Positions 30,342-38,380 of a stretch of DNA of 64,000 nucleotides are shown here, piece by piece; within the stretch, counting starts at the first letter, position 1; each line of letters starts with the position of its first letter. The notes beneath the pieces were generated by a model, which did no database searches, was not told the origin of the DNA, and saw only the letters and a program-made list of their open reading frames with translations. Source of the stretch: Candidatus Avoscillospira avicola (lineage in GTDB: Bacteria; Bacillota; Clostridia; Oscillospirales; Oscillospiraceae). The stretch spans positions 1-64,000 of the forward strand of contig DVHE01000014.1 in assembly GCA_018712245.1 (NCBI GenBank), written 5' to 3'. The position numbers were made by a program, and so were the translations under genes.

Positions 30342-30370
30342 TTGACATCTGGATTGGCTTGCCGTACAAT
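30342..30370 (+). promoter_or_regulatory. Near-consensus promoter of the dehydrogenase-complex operon
   Basis: TTGACA (30342-30347), 17-base spacer, TACAAT (30365-30370). This is among the strongest promoters in the window. The 90-base leader shows no clear operator. Confidence 0.9.
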
Positions 30371-30465
30371 ACAGATGAACAAATATAAAACAACATAAAT
30401 CGTATCAAATCACAGATTACCCAGACGCCGCCGGCCGATGGGACAGAAGAAAGGAAGACAAACGC

Positions 30466-31725
30466 ATGAAGACAAAAGCGGTGCGCATTCATGGAAAAAT
30501 GGATCTTCGTCTGGAGGAGATTGACCTTCCTGAGGTCGGCCCGGATGATGTGCAGGTCAAAATTATTTCTGACAGCATTTGTATGAGTACCTATAAAGCC
30601 GCTGTCGAGGGTGCCGAGCATAAGCGTGTGCCTGACAACGTGGCGGAAAACCCCACCATCGTGGGCCACGAGTTCTGCGGTGTCATCCATGCCGTGGGCG
30701 AGAACTGGAAGCACAAGTATAAGCCCGGCGACGGCTTCGCCATTCAGCCCGCCCACTTCTATAAGGGCTCTCAGATGGCTCCCGGCTACTCCTACCCCTA
30801 CTGCGGCGGCGACAGCCAATATGCCAATGTCCCCATTGAGACGCTGCTGACCGACAACCTCCTCCACTACGATTCCGATACATATTTCTACGGTTCTCTC
30901 TCCGAGCCCATGAGCTGCATCATCGGCACCTTCCACGCCATGTACCACACCAAGGCCGGCTCCTACGAGCATGATATGGGCATCGTCGAAGGCGGCAAGA
31001 TGGCGCTGCTGGCCTCCGTGGGCCCCATGGGCCTGGGTGCCATCGACTACGCGCTCCACTGTGACCGCCGTCCCAGCCTGCTGGTCGTCACCGACATTGA
31101 CGATGAGCGCCTGGCCCGTGCCGAGAGTATCTACACCGTGGAACACGCCAAGTCCCTGGGCATTGAGCTGCACTACGTCAACACCGCCAAGGTGGACGAT
31201 CCGGTCAAGACCCTGCGTGACTTCACCGGCGGCACCGGCTACAACGACGTCATCTGCTTCGCACCTGTCAAGTCTGTTGTGGAGCAGGCCGACGCCATCC
31301 TGGGCTTTGACGGCTGCCTGAACTTCTTCGCCGGCCCCACCAACACCCAGTTCAAGGCCGAGTTCAACTTCTATAATGTCCACTACCTCTACACCCATCT
31401 GGTGGGCACCTCCGGCGGCAACACCGACGACATGAAGGAAGCCATCGCCATGATGACCAGCGGCAAAATCAACCCCGCCGCCATGGTGACGCACGTAGGC
31501 GGCCTGGATGCTGTGGTGGATACCACTTTGAATCTGCCCAACATCCGCGGCGGCAAGAAGCTGATCTACACCCAGATTGAAATGCCTCTGACGGCCATTG
31601 CCGACTTTGACAAGCTGGGCGAGACTGATCCCATGTTCAAGGAACTGGCGGAGATCACCCATCGCCACAACGGCCTTTGGAGCGCCGAGGCGGAGAAATA
31701 CCTCCTCTCCTGCAAGCAACACTAA
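30466..31725 (+). CDS. Zinc-binding MDR dehydrogenase, sorbose-1-phosphate reductase-like
   Basis: The 419-residue medium-chain dehydrogenase has the zinc-site GHEFCGVIHAVGENW (about 66-80), an expanded catalytic part (AIQPAHFYKGSQMAPGYSYPYCGGDSQY) and the Rossmann core GGKMALLASVGPMGLGAIDYALHCDRRPS with VVTDIDDERL. The glycine motif SVGPMGLG and the long loops resemble, from memory, L-sorbose-1-phosphate reductase (SorE) more than butanediol or sorbitol dehydrogenases. The C-terminal 40 residues (EMPLTAIADFDKLGETDPMFKELAEI) also fit that branch. First gene of the operon with E2, E3 and E1, so its keto product may feed, or its substrate may derive from, that complex. The reaction is unproven. 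Confidence 0.8.
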   Translation: MKTKAVRIHGKMDLRLEEIDLPEVGPDDVQVKIISDSICMSTYKAAVEGAEHKRVPDNVAENPTIVGHEFCGVIHAVGENWKHKYKPGDGFAIQPAHFYKGSQMAPGYSYPYCGGDSQYANVPIETLLTDNLLHYDSDTYFYGSLSEPMSCIIGTFHAMYHTKAGSYEHDMGIVEGGKMALLASVGPMGLGAIDYALHCDRRPSLLVVTDIDDERLARAESIYTVEHAKSLGIELHYVNTAKVDDPVKTLRDFTGGTGYNDVICFAPVKSVVEQADAILGFDGCLNFFAGPTNTQFKAEFNFYNVHYLYTHLVGTSGGNTDDMKEAIAMMTSGKINPAAMVTHVGGLDAVVDTTLNLPNIRGGKKLIYTQIEMPLTAIADFDKLGETDPMFKELAEITHRHNGLWSAEAEKYLLSCKQH

Positions 31726-31757
31726 AATCTAATTTATAATTTATAGGAGTGAATACG

Positions 31758-33722
31758 ATGGCACAAGGTGTTCTGATGCCCAAAGAGGGCATCACGGTAG
31801 AATCCTGTATCATTGGCGAATGGAAAAAGAATGTGGGCGACCAGGTCAATGTGGGCGACGTCCTGTTCACCTACGAAACCGACAAGGCTGAGTTTGAATG
31901 CGCCTCCACCGCTGCCGGCACGCTCCTGGCCAAGTTCTATGAAGACGGCGACGAGGTGCCCTGCCTGATCAACGTCTGCGCCGTGGGCAACCCCGGCGAG
32001 GAATTTGAGAGCCTGCGCGGCGTCGGTTCCGCCGGCGCTGCCGCGGCGCCCGCTGAGGCGCCTGCCGCGGCGCCCGCGCCTGCCACGGCTCCTGCCGCCG
32101 CTTCCGCCAACGTGGCCCAGGGCGTCATCATGCCCAAGGAAGGTATCACCGTCGAGTCCTGCATCATCGGCGAGTGGCAGAAGAACGTGGGCGACCAGGT
32201 CAATGTAGGCGATATCCTCTTCACCTATGAGACCGATAAGGCCGAGTTTGAATGCGCCTCCACCGCTGCCGGTACGCTCCTCGCCAAGTTCTATGAGAAC
32301 GGCGACGAGGTGCCCTGCCTTATTAACGTGTGCGCTGTGGGTCAGCCCGGCCAGGAATTTGAGTGCCTGCGGGGCATTGGCGGGACGCCCGCCGCTGCCG
32401 CCCCTGCCGAGGCTGCCGCACCCGCCGCAGCTCCCGCCGCGGCGCCCGCGCCTGTCGCAGCTGCCGGCCCTGTGGCCACCGCTGTGGTCATGCCCAAGGA
32501 AGGCATCACCGTCGAATCCTGCCTGATCGGCGAGTGGCAGAAGAATGTGGGCGACCAGGTCAATGTGGGCGACGTCCTCTTTACTTACGAGACCGACAAG
32601 GCTGAGTTTGAATGCACTTCCACCGCCGCCGGCACGCTGCTGGCTAAGTTCTACGAGAACGGCGACGAAGTGCCCTGCCTGATCAATGTCTGCGCCGTGG
32701 GCAAGCCCGGTGACGCCTTTGAGTGCCTGCGGGGCATCAGCGGCAATCCCGCCGTTGCCCCTGCCGCCGCGCCTGCCGAGGCGGAGGACAGCTCTGACGA
32801 CGGCTCTCCCATCTCGCCCAGAGCCAGAGCCCTGGCCGCCAAGTCCAATGTCAACCTCTCCGGCGCCAAGGGCACTGGCCCCAATGGCCGGATCATCGAG
32901 CGCGATGTGCGCCGCCTGATGGAAGAAGGCGCCTTCAAGAAGGCGCCTGTGGCCGCCGAGGCCGCGGCACCGGCCCCGGCAGCCGCCGCAGCACCGGCTC
33001 CGGCCCCCGCCGCGCCTGCTGCCGAGGCCGACTATGTGGACGTCAAGTTCAACGCTGTCCGTAAGGCCACGGCCAAGTCCATGATGAAGTCCCTCAGCAC
33101 CATGGCCCAGCTGACCCAGCAATTCAGCTTCGACGCCACCCAGCTCCAGGCCTACCGGAAGATGCTCAAGGCTATGGACGGCCCCATGGGCAAGATCTCC
33201 CTCAACGACATGGTGATGTTCGCCGTCAGCCGCACGGTGCTTTCCTGCCCGGACCTCAACGCCAATATGCTGGAGGAAAACATGGTTCGGCAGTTCAAGA
33301 CCGTCAACCTGGGCTTCGCCTGCGACACGCCCAGAGGCTTGCTGGTGCCCGTGATTGCCAACGCCGAGAAGAAGTCTCTGCTGGAGATCTCCATGGAGGC
33401 CAAGGAACTGGCCGCTCTGGCGCGGGATGGCAAGCTGCCGGTGGACAAGATGAATGGCGGCACCTTCACGGTCACCAACATCGGCTCCTTCGGCTGCGAG
33501 GCCTTTACCCCTGTTATCAACCCGCCCCAGACCGGCATTCTGGGCGTCTGCAACATCCAGACCAAGATCAAGTCCGTCAAGGACGGCGTCATTGAGACGT
33601 ATCCGGCCATGGGTCTCAGTCTGACCTTTGACCACCGGGTGGTGGACGGCGCGCCGGCGGCCCGCTTTATGCAGGCCCTGTGCCAGAACCTGGAGAATTT
33701 CCTGACGCTGTTGGCAAAATAG
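31758..33722 (+). CDS. Dihydrolipoamide acyltransferase (E2) with three lipoyl domains
   Basis: The 654-residue E2 carries acyl groups on lipoyl-lysines and passes them to CoA. Three lipoyl domains cover residues about 1-88, 119-206 and 239-326, with lipoylated Lys43, Lys161 and Lys281 in the motif ETDKAEFEC. Ala/Pro linkers follow each. The peripheral-subunit-binding domain is at about 351-388 (SPRARALAAKSNVNL...GPNGRIIERDV), and the catalytic domain (428-654) ends with the active-site DHRVVDG. Most Gram-positive acetoin or pyruvate E2s have one or two lipoyl domains. ATG at 31758 follows AGGAGTG; GTG at 31749 is less likely. It is second in the operon. Confidence 0.92.
   Translation: MAQGVLMPKEGITVESCIIGEWKKNVGDQVNVGDVLFTYETDKAEFECASTAAGTLLAKFYEDGDEVPCLINVCAVGNPGEEFESLRGVGSAGAAAAPAEAPAAAPAPATAPAAASANVAQGVIMPKEGITVESCIIGEWQKNVGDQVNVGDILFTYETDKAEFECASTAAGTLLAKFYENGDEVPCLINVCAVGQPGQEFECLRGIGGTPAAAAPAEAAAPAAAPAAAPAPVAAAGPVATAVVMPKEGITVESCLIGEWQKNVGDQVNVGDVLFTYETDKAEFECTSTAAGTLLAKFYENGDEVPCLINVCAVGKPGDAFECLRGISGNPAVAPAAAPAEAEDSSDDGSPISPRARALAAKSNVNLSGAKGTGPNGRIIERDVRRLMEEGAFKKAPVAAEAAAPAPAAAAAPAPAPAAPAAEADYVDVKFNAVRKATAKSMMKSLSTMAQLTQQFSFDATQLQAYRKMLKAMDGPMGKISLNDMVMFAVSRTVLSCPDLNANMLEENMVRQFKTVNLGFACDTPRGLLVPVIANAEKKSLLEISMEAKELAALARDGKLPVDKMNGGTFTVTNIGSFGCEAFTPVINPPQTGILGVCNIQTKIKSVKDGVIETYPAMGLSLTFDHRVVDGAPAARFMQALCQNLENFLTLLAK
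31764..32735 (+). repeat. Three near-identical lipoyl-domain DNA repeats
   Basis: Units at about 31764-32021, 32115-32375 and 32475-32735 encode almost the same 86 residues (changes such as ASTAAG/TSTAAG, GNPGEE/GQPGQE/GKPGDA). The DNA is also highly alike, so unit number could change by recombination. Confidence 0.9.
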
Positions 33723-33742
33723 AATAGAAAGGTGAGAAGGCT

Positions 33743-35113
33743 GTGGAAAAATTCGATGTAATCGTAGTGGGTGGCGGCCCCGGCGGCTATCTTTGCGCAG
33801 AGCGCGCGGCCCAGGGTGGGCTGAAAGCCGCTGTGGTGGAAAAACGTTGGATGGGCGGTACTTGCCTGAACGAGGGCTGTGTTCCCACAAAGAGCCTTCT
33901 CTACTGTGCCAAGCAATATGCCGCGGCCCGGCATGGCGCCGATTACGGCGTCCATGCCGAGCAGGTGGCCATTGACCATGCAAAAGTGGTGCAGCGCAAG
34001 AACCAGGTGGTCAAGACGCTGGTCAACGGCGTGAAAGGCACCATGCGCAGCCACGGCATCGCCGTCTACATGGCGGAGGCCAAGGTGCTGGGCCGGAATG
34101 CCGACGGCGATTTCCTGGTCCAGGCCGGCGACACGCAGCTCACCGGCAAGCGGCTGGTGGTTGCAACCGGCTCCGTCACAGCGGTGCCGCCGGTACCTGG
34201 CCTGAAAGAGGGCCTGGAGAGCGGCTTTGTGGTGACGAACCGCGAGATTCTCGACCTGACGGAGCTACCCAAAAAGCTGGTGTGCATGGGCGGCGGCGTC
34301 ATCGGTCTGGAAATGGCCTGCTACTTCGCCAGCGTCGGCGTTCCGGTGACAGTCATCGAAATGATGCCCAAGATCGCCGGCGCCACTGACCAGGAGATCT
34401 GCGACACTCTGATGCGTACTTATCAGAAGGAGGGCATGGAGTTCAAGCTCAATGCCAAGCTCCTGGAAGTGGGGGAGGACTCCGTCACGTATGAGGATGC
34501 CGACGGGAAACACACCCTCATCTGTGACAAGATGCTGCTCTCCGCCGGACGGCGGGCCAACATCCAGGGCCTCAATCTGGAGGCGCTGCAGGTGGAGACG
34601 AACCGCGGCGCCGTCGTCACAGACCGGCATATGTGCACCAACGTGCCCGGCGTCTATGCCGTAGGCGACTGCAACGGCAAGCTGATGCTGGCTCACACCG
34701 CCTACCGCGAGGCAGAGGTGGCCGTGAACCATATGCTGGGTATCCCGGACGAGATGCGCTATGAGGCCATCCCCTCAGTCATCTACACCAACCCCGAGGT
34801 GGCCTGCGTGGGCGAGACGCAGCAGTCCGCAGAGGCCAAGGGAATGCGCGTCAAGATGGTCAAAGTGCCGATGATGTACGCCGGCCGCTACGTGGCCGAG
34901 ACCCTCAACGGCGACGGCTTTTGCAAGCTGGTCTATGATCTCGAGCACAACCGCCTGGTAGGCGTGCAGATGATTGGCGCCTATGCCTCGGAGATGATCT
35001 ACGGCGCAGCGCTGATGCTGGAGACCGAGCTGCCCCTGAGCCAGCTCAAGAAGCTGGTCTTCCCCCATCCCACTGTCAGTGAAGTGATTCGGGAAGGATT
35101 GTTCATGCTGTAA
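33743..35113 (+). CDS. lpdA: Dihydrolipoyl dehydrogenase (E3)
   Basis: The FAD/NAD enzyme reoxidises dihydrolipoamide on E2. The 456-residue product has FAD motif VIVVGGGPGGYLCAERAA, the redox disulphide GGTCLNEGCVPTKSLLY, the NAD motif CMGGGVIGLEMACYFASVGVPVTVIE, GVYAVGDCNG, and the C-terminal HPTVSE with the catalytic His-Glu pair. It starts with GTG after AAAGGTGAGAAGG. It has no lipoyl domain of its own. Third in the operon. Confidence 0.95.
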   Translation: MEKFDVIVVGGGPGGYLCAERAAQGGLKAAVVEKRWMGGTCLNEGCVPTKSLLYCAKQYAAARHGADYGVHAEQVAIDHAKVVQRKNQVVKTLVNGVKGTMRSHGIAVYMAEAKVLGRNADGDFLVQAGDTQLTGKRLVVATGSVTAVPPVPGLKEGLESGFVVTNREILDLTELPKKLVCMGGGVIGLEMACYFASVGVPVTVIEMMPKIAGATDQEICDTLMRTYQKEGMEFKLNAKLLEVGEDSVTYEDADGKHTLICDKMLLSAGRRANIQGLNLEALQVETNRGAVVTDRHMCTNVPGVYAVGDCNGKLMLAHTAYREAEVAVNHMLGIPDEMRYEAIPSVIYTNPEVACVGETQQSAEAKGMRVKMVKVPMMYAGRYVAETLNGDGFCKLVYDLEHNRLVGVQMIGAYASEMIYGAALMLETELPLSQLKKLVFPHPTVSEVIREGLFML

Positions 35114-35162
35114 ACGTGCCCCATGGCACTGAAACGGAACATTTAGAAAGGAAGTTTTACTT

Positions 35163-37637
35163 ATGCCCAAGTCCTTGTTTGTGGATCCCGTAGCAACCAG
35201 AGCCTCCGGTTCCATCCATTTTGAGGATATCCCGGTCTGCACCTATAACAAGACCGTGGCCGAAGAGCGGAAGAACTACTCTGACGAAGACCTCATCCGT
35301 ATCTACCGCGATATCACCATTCTCCGCGAGTTTGAGCATATGCTAACCCTGATCAAGACCCAGGCCAACTACAACGGCATCGAGACCACATATCCCGGCC
35401 CCGCCCACCTGTCCCTGGGCCAGGAGGCCTCCTGTGTCGGCGAAGCGTATCTGTTGGACAAGGACGACATCATCTTCGGTTCTCACCGGTCTCACTCCGA
35501 AATTCTGGCCAAGAGCCTTTCCTGCATCGAGAAGATGTCCGACAAAGAACTGATGGACGTCATGGAGAACTTCCTGGGCGGCAAGACCCTGCGGGCCGTG
35601 GAGAAGTTCGGCAAGACCGACAACGTCAAGGAACTGGCCATCCGCTTCATCCTTTACGGTACGCTGGCTGAAATCTTCGCCCGGGAGAACGGCTTCCATC
35701 ACGGCATGGGCGGCTCCATGCACGCCTTCTTCCTGCCCTTCGGCGTCTATCCCAACAACGCCATCGTCGGTGGCTCCGCCACCATCGCAGCCGGCGCTGC
35801 CCTCTATAAGAAGAACAACGACAAGAAGGGCATGGTCGTCTGCAACATTGGCGACGCGTCCCTGGGCTGCGGCCCCGTGTGGGAAGCCTTCAACTTCGCC
35901 GCCATGGATCAGTACAAGACCCTGTGGGAAGAGGGCCGCAAGGGCGGTCTGCCGGTGATCTTCAATGTCTTCAATAACTCCTACGGCATGGGCGGCCAGA
36001 CCCGCGGCGAGACCATGGCCTATGACCTGCTGGCTCGGATCGGCGCCGGCATCACCCCCGATCAGATGCACGCCGAGCGTGTGGACGGCTGGAACCCCCT
36101 GGCTGTCATCGACGCCTATCGCCGCAAGAAGGAACTGATCGCCAATGGCGATGGCCCTGTGCTGCTGGACGTTGTCACCTACCGTCTGGTGGGCCACTCC
36201 ACCTCCGACCAGAACGCCTACCGTACCAAGGAGGAGATCGAAGCCTGGCGCTCTTACGATCCCATCATCACCTACCGCAAGGCTCTGGTGGACGCCGGCG
36301 TCGCGCCCGACAGCAAGTTTGAGGAGATCCTCAAGGAGACCAGCGAGCGTATGACCATGGTCTGCCGCGCTGCTTCCGATAAGGAGATCAGCCCCTATGT
36401 GGACTTCCACAAGAACCCCGACTATGTGGCCAACCTGATGTTCTCCAACGAGACCGTCCGCTCCATGGACCCCAACGGCGAGATTCGCGTCACCGGTCCC
36501 AAGGAGAGCTGCAAGCGCTATGCCGACCTGGCCAAGAAGGAGCACTCCGCTTTCGATGCCGACGGCAAGCCCTTCTCCAAGATGAAGGTCTACAACATCC
36601 GCGACGCTATCTTTGAGCCGCTGATCAACAAGTATTATGAAGATCCCACACTGGTCGCCTATGGCGAGGACGTCCGCGACTGGGGCGGCGCCTACGCCGT
36701 GTACCGCGGCCTGATGGACGTGATTCCCTATAGCCGTCTCTTCAACTCCCCGATTTCCGAGGCTGCCATCGTAGGCTCCGCCGTTGGCTATTGCATGTGC
36801 GGTGGCCGCGCCGTCGTGGAGCTGATGTACTGCGACTTCCTGGGCCGCGCCGGTGACGAGGTCTTCAACCAGATGTCCAAGTGGCAGGCCATGTCTGCCG
36901 GCATCCTGAAGATGCCCATGATCCTGCGTATGTCCGTTGGCGCTAAGTACGGTGCCCAGCACTCTCAGGACTGGGCCGCGCTGATGGCCCACATCCCTGG
37001 CCTGAAGGTCTTCTTCCCCGCGACGCCTTACGAGGCCAAGGGCATTATGCAGGCTGCCCTCAACGGCACCGACCCCTGCGTCATCATGGAGTCCCAGAGA
37101 ATTTACGACAAGGGCGAGGAATTCCACCAGGGCGGCGTGCCCACCGAGGAGTACGAGTGGAAGCCCGGTGCGGTCAATAAGGTTCGCGACGGCAAGGATC
37201 TTTCCATCTTCACCATCGGCGCCACCCTCTACCGCGCCATGGACGCCGCCAAGGAGCTCTCTGAGAAGTACGGCTTGGAGGCCGACGTTATCAGCATGCC
37301 CTCTCTGGTGCCGCTGGACTATACCGAACTGGTGGAGTCCGTCAAGAAGACGGGCCGTGTGGTGCTGGCCTCCGACGCCTGCGCCCGTGGCAGCTTCCTC
37401 AATGACATTGCGCAGAACCTCTCCACGCTCTGCTTCGATTATCTGGATGCGCCGGTGGTGGTCATTGGCGCCAAGAACTGGATCACGCCTCCCTACGAGT
37501 TTGACGAGTTCTTCTTCCCGCAGGCCGAGTGGATCGTGGACGCTGTCAATGCCCGGATCGTGCCGCTGGAGGGCTATGTCTCCAAGACGACGCCTACCGA
37601 GGCTGAGATCATTCGCACCGCGAAGGCCGGCGTGTAA
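35163..37637 (+). CDS. Fused E1 alpha-beta component of a 2-oxoacid/acetoin-type dehydrogenase
   Basis: The 824-residue thiamine-diphosphate enzyme joins the E1 alpha and beta subunits in one chain. The alpha part (about 1-450) has GSHRSHSEILAKSL, the ThDP site GDASLGCGPVWEAFNFAA and FNNSYGMGGQTRGET. The beta part starts at about residue 473 (KMKVYNIRDAIFEPLINKYY) and has the E1-beta landmarks SEAAIVGSAVGYCMCG, QHSQDWAALMAHIPGLKV and VLASDACARGSF. Acetoin, pyruvate and branched-chain E1s are normally separate subunits; fusions are known in some bacteria. The substrate cannot be fixed from sequence. AAAGGAAG precedes the ATG. Codon use is strongly biased, suggesting high expression. Confidence 0.9.
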   Translation: MPKSLFVDPVATRASGSIHFEDIPVCTYNKTVAEERKNYSDEDLIRIYRDITILREFEHMLTLIKTQANYNGIETTYPGPAHLSLGQEASCVGEAYLLDKDDIIFGSHRSHSEILAKSLSCIEKMSDKELMDVMENFLGGKTLRAVEKFGKTDNVKELAIRFILYGTLAEIFARENGFHHGMGGSMHAFFLPFGVYPNNAIVGGSATIAAGAALYKKNNDKKGMVVCNIGDASLGCGPVWEAFNFAAMDQYKTLWEEGRKGGLPVIFNVFNNSYGMGGQTRGETMAYDLLARIGAGITPDQMHAERVDGWNPLAVIDAYRRKKELIANGDGPVLLDVVTYRLVGHSTSDQNAYRTKEEIEAWRSYDPIITYRKALVDAGVAPDSKFEEILKETSERMTMVCRAASDKEISPYVDFHKNPDYVANLMFSNETVRSMDPNGEIRVTGPKESCKRYADLAKKEHSAFDADGKPFSKMKVYNIRDAIFEPLINKYYEDPTLVAYGEDVRDWGGAYAVYRGLMDVIPYSRLFNSPISEAAIVGSAVGYCMCGGRAVVELMYCDFLGRAGDEVFNQMSKWQAMSAGILKMPMILRMSVGAKYGAQHSQDWAALMAHIPGLKVFFPATPYEAKGIMQAALNGTDPCVIMESQRIYDKGEEFHQGGVPTEEYEWKPGAVNKVRDGKDLSIFTIGATLYRAMDAAKELSEKYGLEADVISMPSLVPLDYTELVESVKKTGRVVLASDACARGSFLNDIAQNLSTLCFDYLDAPVVVIGAKNWITPPYEFDEFFFPQAEWIVDAVNARIVPLEGYVSKTTPTEAEIIRTAKAGV

Positions 37638-37643
37638 TACCAT

Positions 37644-38309
37644 ATGGATATTCAAAAGGTAAAAGCCGCCATATTTGACTTGGACGGCACCCTTTTGGAT
37701 ACGTTGGGCGATATCGGCACAGCCGCCAACGAGGCGCTGTGCCGGTATGGCTTGCCTGCGCATCCAATTTCGGAGTACCGCAGCTTGGTGGGCCACGGCA
37801 TTCGGACGCTGTTCCGTCAAGCCGTCCCCGCGAATACATCCGAGGAACTATATGACAAGGCGCTGTCGTTCTATCTCGGCTATTATCCGGAGCATTGCAT
37901 CGTTCACACGGCGTATTTCCCCGGCGTGCAGGAATTTCTGAAGAAACTGGACGCCAGGGGGATCCGCCTGGCCGTGATCTCCAACAAAACCGAAGCCACC
38001 AGCCATAAGATCATCTCGCACTTTTTCCCGGATACCCAGTGGGCCTTTGTCTGGGGGAATAATGGTTCGCGGCCGCTGAAGCCCGCGCTGGACGCGGGGC
38101 GGCTGGCCTGCGAGACGCTGCGGCTGAATCCGGAGGAGATTCTCTATGTGGGCGACGGCGACACGGATATGGAGTTTGCCTCCAAGATGGGCTTCATTGC
38201 CGCCGGCGTCACCTGGGGTTACCGGGACGCGGACGTGCTGCTGGCTGCCGGCGCTGACTTCCTGTCCGGTTCTTTCCGGGCGCTGGAAGAGAAGCTGGGC
38301 CTGATTTAG
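37644..38309 (+). CDS. HAD-family phosphatase (phosphoglycolate phosphatase-like)
   Basis: The 221-residue HAD hydrolase has the nucleophile motif AIFDLDGTLLDT (Asp12, Asp14), a helical cap (about 20-95), motif II VISNKTEA, motif III Lys in RPLKPALD, and motif IV YVGDGDTDMEFA. It resembles Gph or beta-phosphoglucomutase relatives; the substrate is probably a small sugar phosphate or phosphoglycolate-like compound. It follows E1 by six bases and precedes the operon terminator, so it is co-transcribed with the dehydrogenase complex. The Shine-Dalgarno site is weak, so translation may be coupled. Confidence 0.9.
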   Translation: MDIQKVKAAIFDLDGTLLDTLGDIGTAANEALCRYGLPAHPISEYRSLVGHGIRTLFRQAVPANTSEELYDKALSFYLGYYPEHCIVHTAYFPGVQEFLKKLDARGIRLAVISNKTEATSHKIISHFFPDTQWAFVWGNNGSRPLKPALDAGRLACETLRLNPEEILYVGDGDTDMEFASKMGFIAAGVTWGYRDADVLLAAGADFLSGSFRALEEKLGLI

Positions 38310-38338
38310 GCGTTGCAAGCATCCTGCGCATTCAAACA

Positions 38339-38380
38339 TTCGGCAGCGGAGTTGCGGCTCTGCTGCCGAAATCTTTGTTT
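38339..38380 (+). terminator. Terminator of the dehydrogenase-complex operon
   Basis: TTCGGCAGC/GCTGCCGAA stem (38339-38347/38362-38370) followed by ATCTTTGTTT. Confidence 0.8.

Follow-up and report, generated by a model that had tools for sequence, protein, structure and literature searches.

A fused-E1 dehydrogenase-type complex of Candidatus Avoscillospira avicola, associated in relatives with 6-deoxyhexose genes

On what substrate does an E1-E2-E3 complex act when its genes share an operon with a dehydrogenase that resembles ketose-phosphate reductases? This question is raised by a five-gene operon in a stretch of 64,000 nucleotides from Candidatus Avoscillospira avicola, here called the window, which belongs to contig C4 of a draft genome of 2.4 Mb and 84% completeness. 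The operon encodes a zinc-dependent MDR dehydrogenase, E2, E3, a fused E1 and a HAD phosphatase, and thus brings together E1, an E2 with lipoyl, E3-binding and acyltransferase domains, and E3, as in complexes of the 2-oxoacid dehydrogenase type. Based on comparisons with related loci and genomes, we suggest that the complex probably serves the catabolism of 6-deoxyhexoses together with the MDR enzyme, an SDR enzyme and a PHP protein, and we give an even chance to the more specific proposal of an acetoin-dehydrogenase-like complex that cleaves ketols in this catabolism.

The fused E1 and the genes linked to it

The E1 gene (35163..37637, + strand, 824 aa) is assigned to a thiamine-diphosphate enzyme by Pfam, an AlphaFold2 model and a tree. 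Pfam identifies the protein as an alpha-beta fusion, and the halves of the model (mean pLDDT 81.4) match solved E1 alpha chains (Z up to 35) and solved E1 beta chains (Z up to 37), with 20-33% identity in the structural alignments. Scored against curated pyruvate dehydrogenase (PDH) families, the protein stays under all four cut-offs: 212 bits vs 321 for PRK09212, 192 vs 394 for TIGR03182, 144 vs 411 for TIGR03181 and 212 vs 454 for PRK11892. In a tree of 33 rows, 19 rows of the family, including the window, are split by a fully supported branch from the PDH, branched-chain 2-oxoacid dehydrogenase (BCKDH) and acetoin-type rows; this tree has several long reference branches and came with a warning of false joins from the tool, the acetoin-type rows are two only (L199, so classed by gene name, and L204, by a neighbouring acetoin reductase), and the row L206, translated with table 11, was retained with 10 internal stops. 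We infer from these comparisons that the fused E1 is a clade of its own, apart from the tested PDH, BCKDH and acetoin-type rows: it shares the fold and the general active-site motifs with the E1 of PDH and BCKDH, but differs from them in its low identity, its scores and its position in the tree. Prediction of the E1 substrate from active-site residues was also attempted and dropped because the alignments to solved chains showed no deciding difference.

The gene neighbourhood was analysed at 85 E1 loci, comprising 80 named loci from the best 80 of 591 relatives (mostly metagenome-assembled genomes of Clostridia, with some Bacteroidales and others), the window and four alphaproteobacterial plasmids; genes were called by our own choice of open reading frames (ORFs), not by a gene finder, many contigs are short and the locus counts lean to close kin. 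MDR genes are found at 37 of these loci, DeoR regulators at 36, SDR genes at 31, lipoate ligase at 25, PHP genes at 16, an aldolase of the SDR's group at 13, HAD genes at 7 and lipoyl synthase at 4, and at a further 7 loci there is a second, PHP-like cluster that is related to PHP by BLAST and has no Pfam or NCBIfam match. The SDR/aldolase cluster as a whole contained 33 loci including L133, which has a weak generic SDR only, and 32 on re-analysis.

The initial annotation had proposed that homologous operons be collected to see whether MDR and HAD genes accompany the fused E1 and which transporters or kinases join them. In such a collection the MDR gene recurs and FucK/RhaB-type kinases as well as FucP join the complex, whereas the HAD gene is not recurrent: it lies directly after E1 in the window and in six relatives with 79-95% identity in E1, and we therefore dropped it as a core part of the module. 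Similarly, the statement that no gene is a transporter or a regulator is true of the five operon genes, yet DeoR-type regulators accompany more than a third of the E1 loci. The recurrent partners beyond those first recognised are the SDR enzyme, which is similar to sorbitol-6-phosphate dehydrogenase, the PHP protein, and a link to L-fucose and L-rhamnose.

These associations were also seen in a sample of 147 genomes of the window genome's order. E1 matched in 50 genomes, of which two (G032 and G052) were left out as E1-beta-type proteins without fusion; matches were thus counted for E1 in 48 genomes, for MDR in 52, for SDR/aldolase in 36 and for PHP in 34, with all four in 31. Among the 36 SDR/aldolase genomes, 23 have the whole fusion (one of them, G140, with a TAG inside it), 10 have just the SDR half and three just the aldolase half (G073, G081 and G126). 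Genomes with PHP have E1 in 33 of 34 cases, SDR/aldolase in 34 of 34 and a rhamnulokinase-like kinase in 33 of 34, compared with 87 of 147 genomes overall for the kinase. Within 12 kb of each other lie E1 and MDR in 25 of the 38 genomes with both, SDR and PHP in 25 of 34, SDR and the kinase in 13 of 34, and E1 and the kinase in 6 of 38; by chance about 0.5 is expected per pair under a rough uniform model with a 1.8-Mb genome, and the count used 74 of 92 kinase places and ignored any second copies of other genes. Some named loci duplicate sampled genomes (e.g. L138 = G064, L153 = G027, L158 = G020), so that the two sets are non-independent. Taken together, these data give good support to the link of the E1 family with MDR, SDR, PHP and 6-deoxyhexose genes.

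A mannitol-1-phosphate-dehydrogenase-like gene was found at most two genes from E1 or MDR at L041, L042, L044, L069, L082, L138, L153 and L165, L138 being a repeat of L042; three genomes with loci of this type (G002, G046 and G064) have no SDR match.

The link to 6-deoxyhexoses is most direct at nine E1 loci that contain an L-rhamnose or L-fucose isomerase together with a kinase (L051, L056, L057, L058, L085, L086, L168, L171 and L176). At L168 and L171 the order is MDR-SDR-E2-E3-E1-PHP-RhaA-aldolase-RhaB, with L171 starting inside MDR; at L176 FucI-FucK-FucP is followed by E2-E3-E1-(PHP-like)-SDR-MDR; and at L086, in genome G079, the order is FucI-kinase-E2-E3-E1-MDR-SDR-PHP. NCBIfam cut-offs are exceeded by FucI in L086, by FucI, FucK and FucP in L176 and by RhaA in L168. 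The L086 and L168 kinases resemble rhamnulokinase and stay under its cut-off (463 and 524 bits vs 528). Away from E1, aldolase-SDR and PHP genes stand with RhaA and RhaB at L186, L187 and L197, and also at L185, whose genome gave no match to E1.

In the window's own genome, the SDR and PHP genes are adjacent on contig C68. The SDR lacks a fused aldolase half and is 68% identical to the SDR half of the aldolase-SDR fusion; it scores 230 bits against sorbitol-6-phosphate dehydrogenase (cut-off 307) and 154 bits against the RhaEW-type fusion. FucI is encoded on contig C83, where its neighbours were read by eye as a FucU-like gene and genes of an ABC transporter, and contig C7 encodes a rhamnulokinase-like kinase (431 bits, cut-off 528). 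As FucI is present and no match to RhaA was found in this genome, L-fucose is most likely the deoxy-sugar used by the window's organism, as judged from gene content. The nine other genomes of the same family that were searched all lack matches to E1, MDR, SDR/aldolase and PHP, and a gain or loss of the entire module may have taken place in the window's genome. We also considered that the operon was assigned to this genome by a binning error; this seems unlikely, as SDR and PHP are encoded on a different contig of this genome, although all nine family members lack matches.

A candidate route from 6-deoxyhexoses to acetyl-CoA

In the gut, mucin and plant fibre provide fucose and rhamnose as sources of carbon. 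Combining the locus and genome data, we tentatively suggest a route that would bypass lactaldehyde and 1,2-propanediol by moving the carbonyl to the methyl end via a 6-deoxyhexitol phosphate; this exact chemistry, including the substrate, is one that we would sooner doubt than accept. In this scheme (i) L-fucose, or L-rhamnose in some relatives, would be isomerised and phosphorylated to a 6-deoxy-ketose-1-phosphate, (ii) MDR would reduce the C2 carbonyl adjoining the phosphate end, (iii) SDR would oxidise the hydroxyl adjoining the methyl end, giving by a net carbonyl shift a methyl ketone, the 1-deoxyketose-6-phosphate (CH3-CO-CHOH-), with the same alpha-ketol group as acetoin, and (iv) E1 would split this compound at the alpha-ketol bond, with E2 and E3 transferring the two-carbon unit to coenzyme A (CoA). 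The products would be acetyl-CoA, NADH and a tetrose-4-phosphate, which PHP, and HAD in close relatives, may handle.

Steps (ii) and (iii) have a counterpart in the L-sorbose pathway, in which SorE reduces L-sorbose-1-phosphate to glucitol-6-phosphate, sorbitol-6-phosphate dehydrogenase acts as an oxidant at the opposite, far end of its substrate, and the two enzymes jointly move the carbonyl along a ketose phosphate. Both enzyme types are present here, as MDR and SDR, but they are linked to 6-deoxyhexose genes and to an E1-E2-E3 complex. The window MDR is 47.3-47.7% identical to three annotated SorE proteins, with 99% of the protein covered, and 54.7% identical to an E. coli protein annotated as YggP; no sor genes (sorbose phosphotransferase system (PTS) and others) are among the five operon genes, to which the search for them was confined. 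The earlier suggestion that the operon turns a sugar- or polyol-derived keto compound into acyl-CoA agrees with the sugar-gene context and with the ketose-phosphate-reductase-like MDR, while the formation of acyl-CoA itself remains predicted. L-fuculose and L-rhamnulose differ at C4 only, and as C4 would become the aldehyde on cleavage, one module could serve both sugars; this economy fits the cut of a classical aldolase equally well and does not decide between them.

Support for ketol chemistry comes from four alphaproteobacterial plasmids with full-length E1 homologues that are 50.6-52.7% identical over 96-97%, the next matches listed being at about 32%. At all four loci genes for a lipoyl protein and an alpha/beta hydrolase come after E1, and the annotation places sugar kinase and sugar ABC-transporter genes no more than 12 kb away. 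The hydrolase of L180, the one locus tested, has the AcoC acyltransferase as its best curated family, matching the C-terminal part (202 bits vs a cut-off of 307 for the fused whole), and an AcoC-like hydrolase in the company of E1 points to ketol rather than oxoacid chemistry. The system resembles acetoin dehydrogenase (AcoABC/AcoL) in its thiamine-diphosphate-dependent E1, its lipoyl carrier and, at L180, this hydrolase, but differs in that E1 is fused, in a separate clade and in a sugar-gene context, and in that the window E2 has the common 2-oxoacid acyltransferase domain.

If the scheme is correct, the direct formation of acetyl-CoA would alter the fermentation products predicted for the many uncultured Clostridia and some Bacteroidales with these genes, and would represent a sugar-cleaving use of the E1-E2-E3 design. 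The gene sets at the named loci make the proposal directly testable.

Weighing the alternatives

The sugar could instead be cleaved in the classical way before the complex acts: an aldolase would split fuculose- or rhamnulose-1-phosphate into dihydroxyacetone phosphate (DHAP) and L-lactaldehyde, MDR and SDR would lead to a three-carbon alpha-dicarbonyl or ketol (e.g. methylglyoxal), and E1 would release acetyl-CoA and formate or another C1 unit. We regard this order of events as rather unlikely, although a class II aldolase, SDR-fused or separate, is present at 7 of the 9 isomerase-bearing E1 loci, as the classical DHAP and lactaldehyde route needs, and the fusion to SDR in 23 of 36 genomes has a precedent in RhaEW, an aldolase-SDR protein shown in PMC3870299 to make DHAP and L-lactate. 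Relatives share the aldolase-SDR fusion with RhaEW, in several cases with RhaA and RhaB nearby. However, one such fusion (L060) scores 264 bits against TIGR02632 (cut-off 568), and the SDR has sorbitol-6-phosphate dehydrogenase as best curated match, under the cut-off; SDR is nearer to polyol-phosphate dehydrogenases than to the RhaEW model, MDR is nearer to SorE, and the acyl-CoA complex, MDR and PHP are additions to the RhaEW design. Moreover, the SDR of the window's genome has no aldolase half, no class II aldolase is in the L176 operon, and no class II fuculose-phosphate aldolase was seen in G079 (91% complete), the sole class II match of which is AraD-like. An aldolase-free route as a general rule was nevertheless dropped in view of the aldolases at seven of the nine loci; the case is clean for G079 only.

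The complex could also be an ordinary pyruvate or 2-oxoacid dehydrogenase complex that is merely co-regulated with sugar genes. The E1 fold and general active-site motifs and the ordinary types of E2 and E3 speak for this, but it appears improbable given the separation of E1 from the PDH and BCKDH rows, the four PDH cut-offs, the AcoC-like partner in alphaproteobacteria and the linkage to SDR, PHP and MDR, which it leaves unexplained. In addition, the window's genome encodes a full-length pyruvate:ferredoxin oxidoreductase, and its organism therefore need not use the complex for pyruvate. Least probable of all is a plain acetoin dehydrogenase: the split AcoC-like partner at the alphaproteobacterial loci would fit, but both acetoin-type rows fall outside the E1 clade and the context consists of sugar isomerases, sugar kinases and polyol-phosphate-type dehydrogenases.

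Several points weigh against a ketol-cleaving complex in 6-deoxyhexose catabolism. E1 retains the usual active-site motifs, and pyruvate is compatible by sequence alone; the SDR of the window's genome is under its sorbitol-6-phosphate dehydrogenase cut-off; and the fate of the tetrose phosphate is unaccounted for in the scheme. To our knowledge, enzymatic activity is known for no member of the E1 family, and the papers listed by searches of the PMC literature, which leaves most subscription journals outside its coverage, included no report of such a complex with fucose or rhamnose, of an activity for it or of the route suggested here. E1 can occur without these partners, 14 of the 48 E1 genomes having no SDR/aldolase match and 10 no MDR match, and conversely 14 of the 52 MDR genomes have no E1; in some of the latter, mannitol-type PTS genes adjoin MDR. 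The co-occurrence and proximity statistics ignore shared ancestry. The L176 genome and the window's genome hold other class II aldolase-family genes, in the latter AraD and two of unclear function. Finally, Clostridium beijerinckii and C. phytofermentans are described as using the classical lactaldehyde route to degrade L-rhamnose (PMC3870299, PMC6384099), and the anaerobic route described in Clostridium passes through lactaldehyde to 1,2-propanediol (PMC6384099).

Layout of the operon and further observations

The promoter, the row of five genes and the terminator of the initial annotation are all present in the sequence. The genes lie on the + strand with short spacings of 32, 20, 49 and 6 bases. 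They are preceded by a sigma-70-type promoter-like site, TTGACA-N17-TACAAT (30342..30370, + strand), which has 11 of 12 consensus positions and the top score among five such sites in the region (shuffle mean 2.4, sd 1.6), and followed by a terminator-like hairpin of 14 pairs with a T-rich tail (38339..38370, + strand). The region has three terminator-like sites and shuffles give more (mean 6.6), so that this class of match is within chance; the long stem of the operon hairpin, the longest of the three, alone stands out.

The first gene (30466..31725, 419 aa) encodes the SorE/YggP-like zinc MDR dehydrogenase, by Pfam and similarity a predicted ketose-1-phosphate or polyol-phosphate oxidoreductase. 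MDR relatives at L070, L074 and L076, in genomes without E1, adjoin mannitol-type PTS genes and a PfkB-type kinase; these neighbours were named by eye and clustering, and the PTS gene of L074 was confirmed by a profile match. E2 (31758..33722, 654 aa) has three lipoyl domains, an E3-binding domain and a catalytic acyltransferase domain, and its lipoyl domains are near-copies, with 71-73 of 78 residues identical. A count of lipoyl motifs in 68 E2 proteins including the window's gave one in 43, two in 10, three in 6 and none in 9, some of the last being cut by contig ends. E3 (33743..35113, 456 aa) is a dihydrolipoyl dehydrogenase (TIGR01350, 476 bits, cut-off 409). The last gene (37644..38309, 221 aa) encodes a HAD phosphatase of the phosphoglycolate-phosphatase-like group, with scores that stay under the cut-offs for phosphoglycolate phosphatase itself; of the earlier proposal that the MDR and HAD genes are both tied to the complex, the part concerning MDR stood.

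Three further proteins were observed. Fructose-6-phosphate-aldolase-like enzymes handle 1-deoxyketose phosphates, and such a protein is encoded in the fucose locus L176 (L176:5536-6195, 204 bits vs a cut-off of 246). About 19 kb from the SDR-PHP pair on contig C68 of the window's genome (G000), L184:13239-14534 encodes a two-domain class II aldolase-family protein with 3-oxo-tetronate-4-phosphate decarboxylase as best curated match (172 bits vs a cut-off of 250); a similar protein in L244 lies beside an ORF that is kinase-like by eye but matches nothing in NCBIfam at 1e-20. The Arthrobacter plasmid NZ_CP084551.1 encodes a more distant fused E1 (L208:758-2842, 31.5% identity), which is perhaps another sugar-linked E1: according to the record, its neighbours are a lone lipoyl protein, a sugar kinase of the FGGY type, a class II fructose-bisphosphate aldolase and a regulator that binds sugar.

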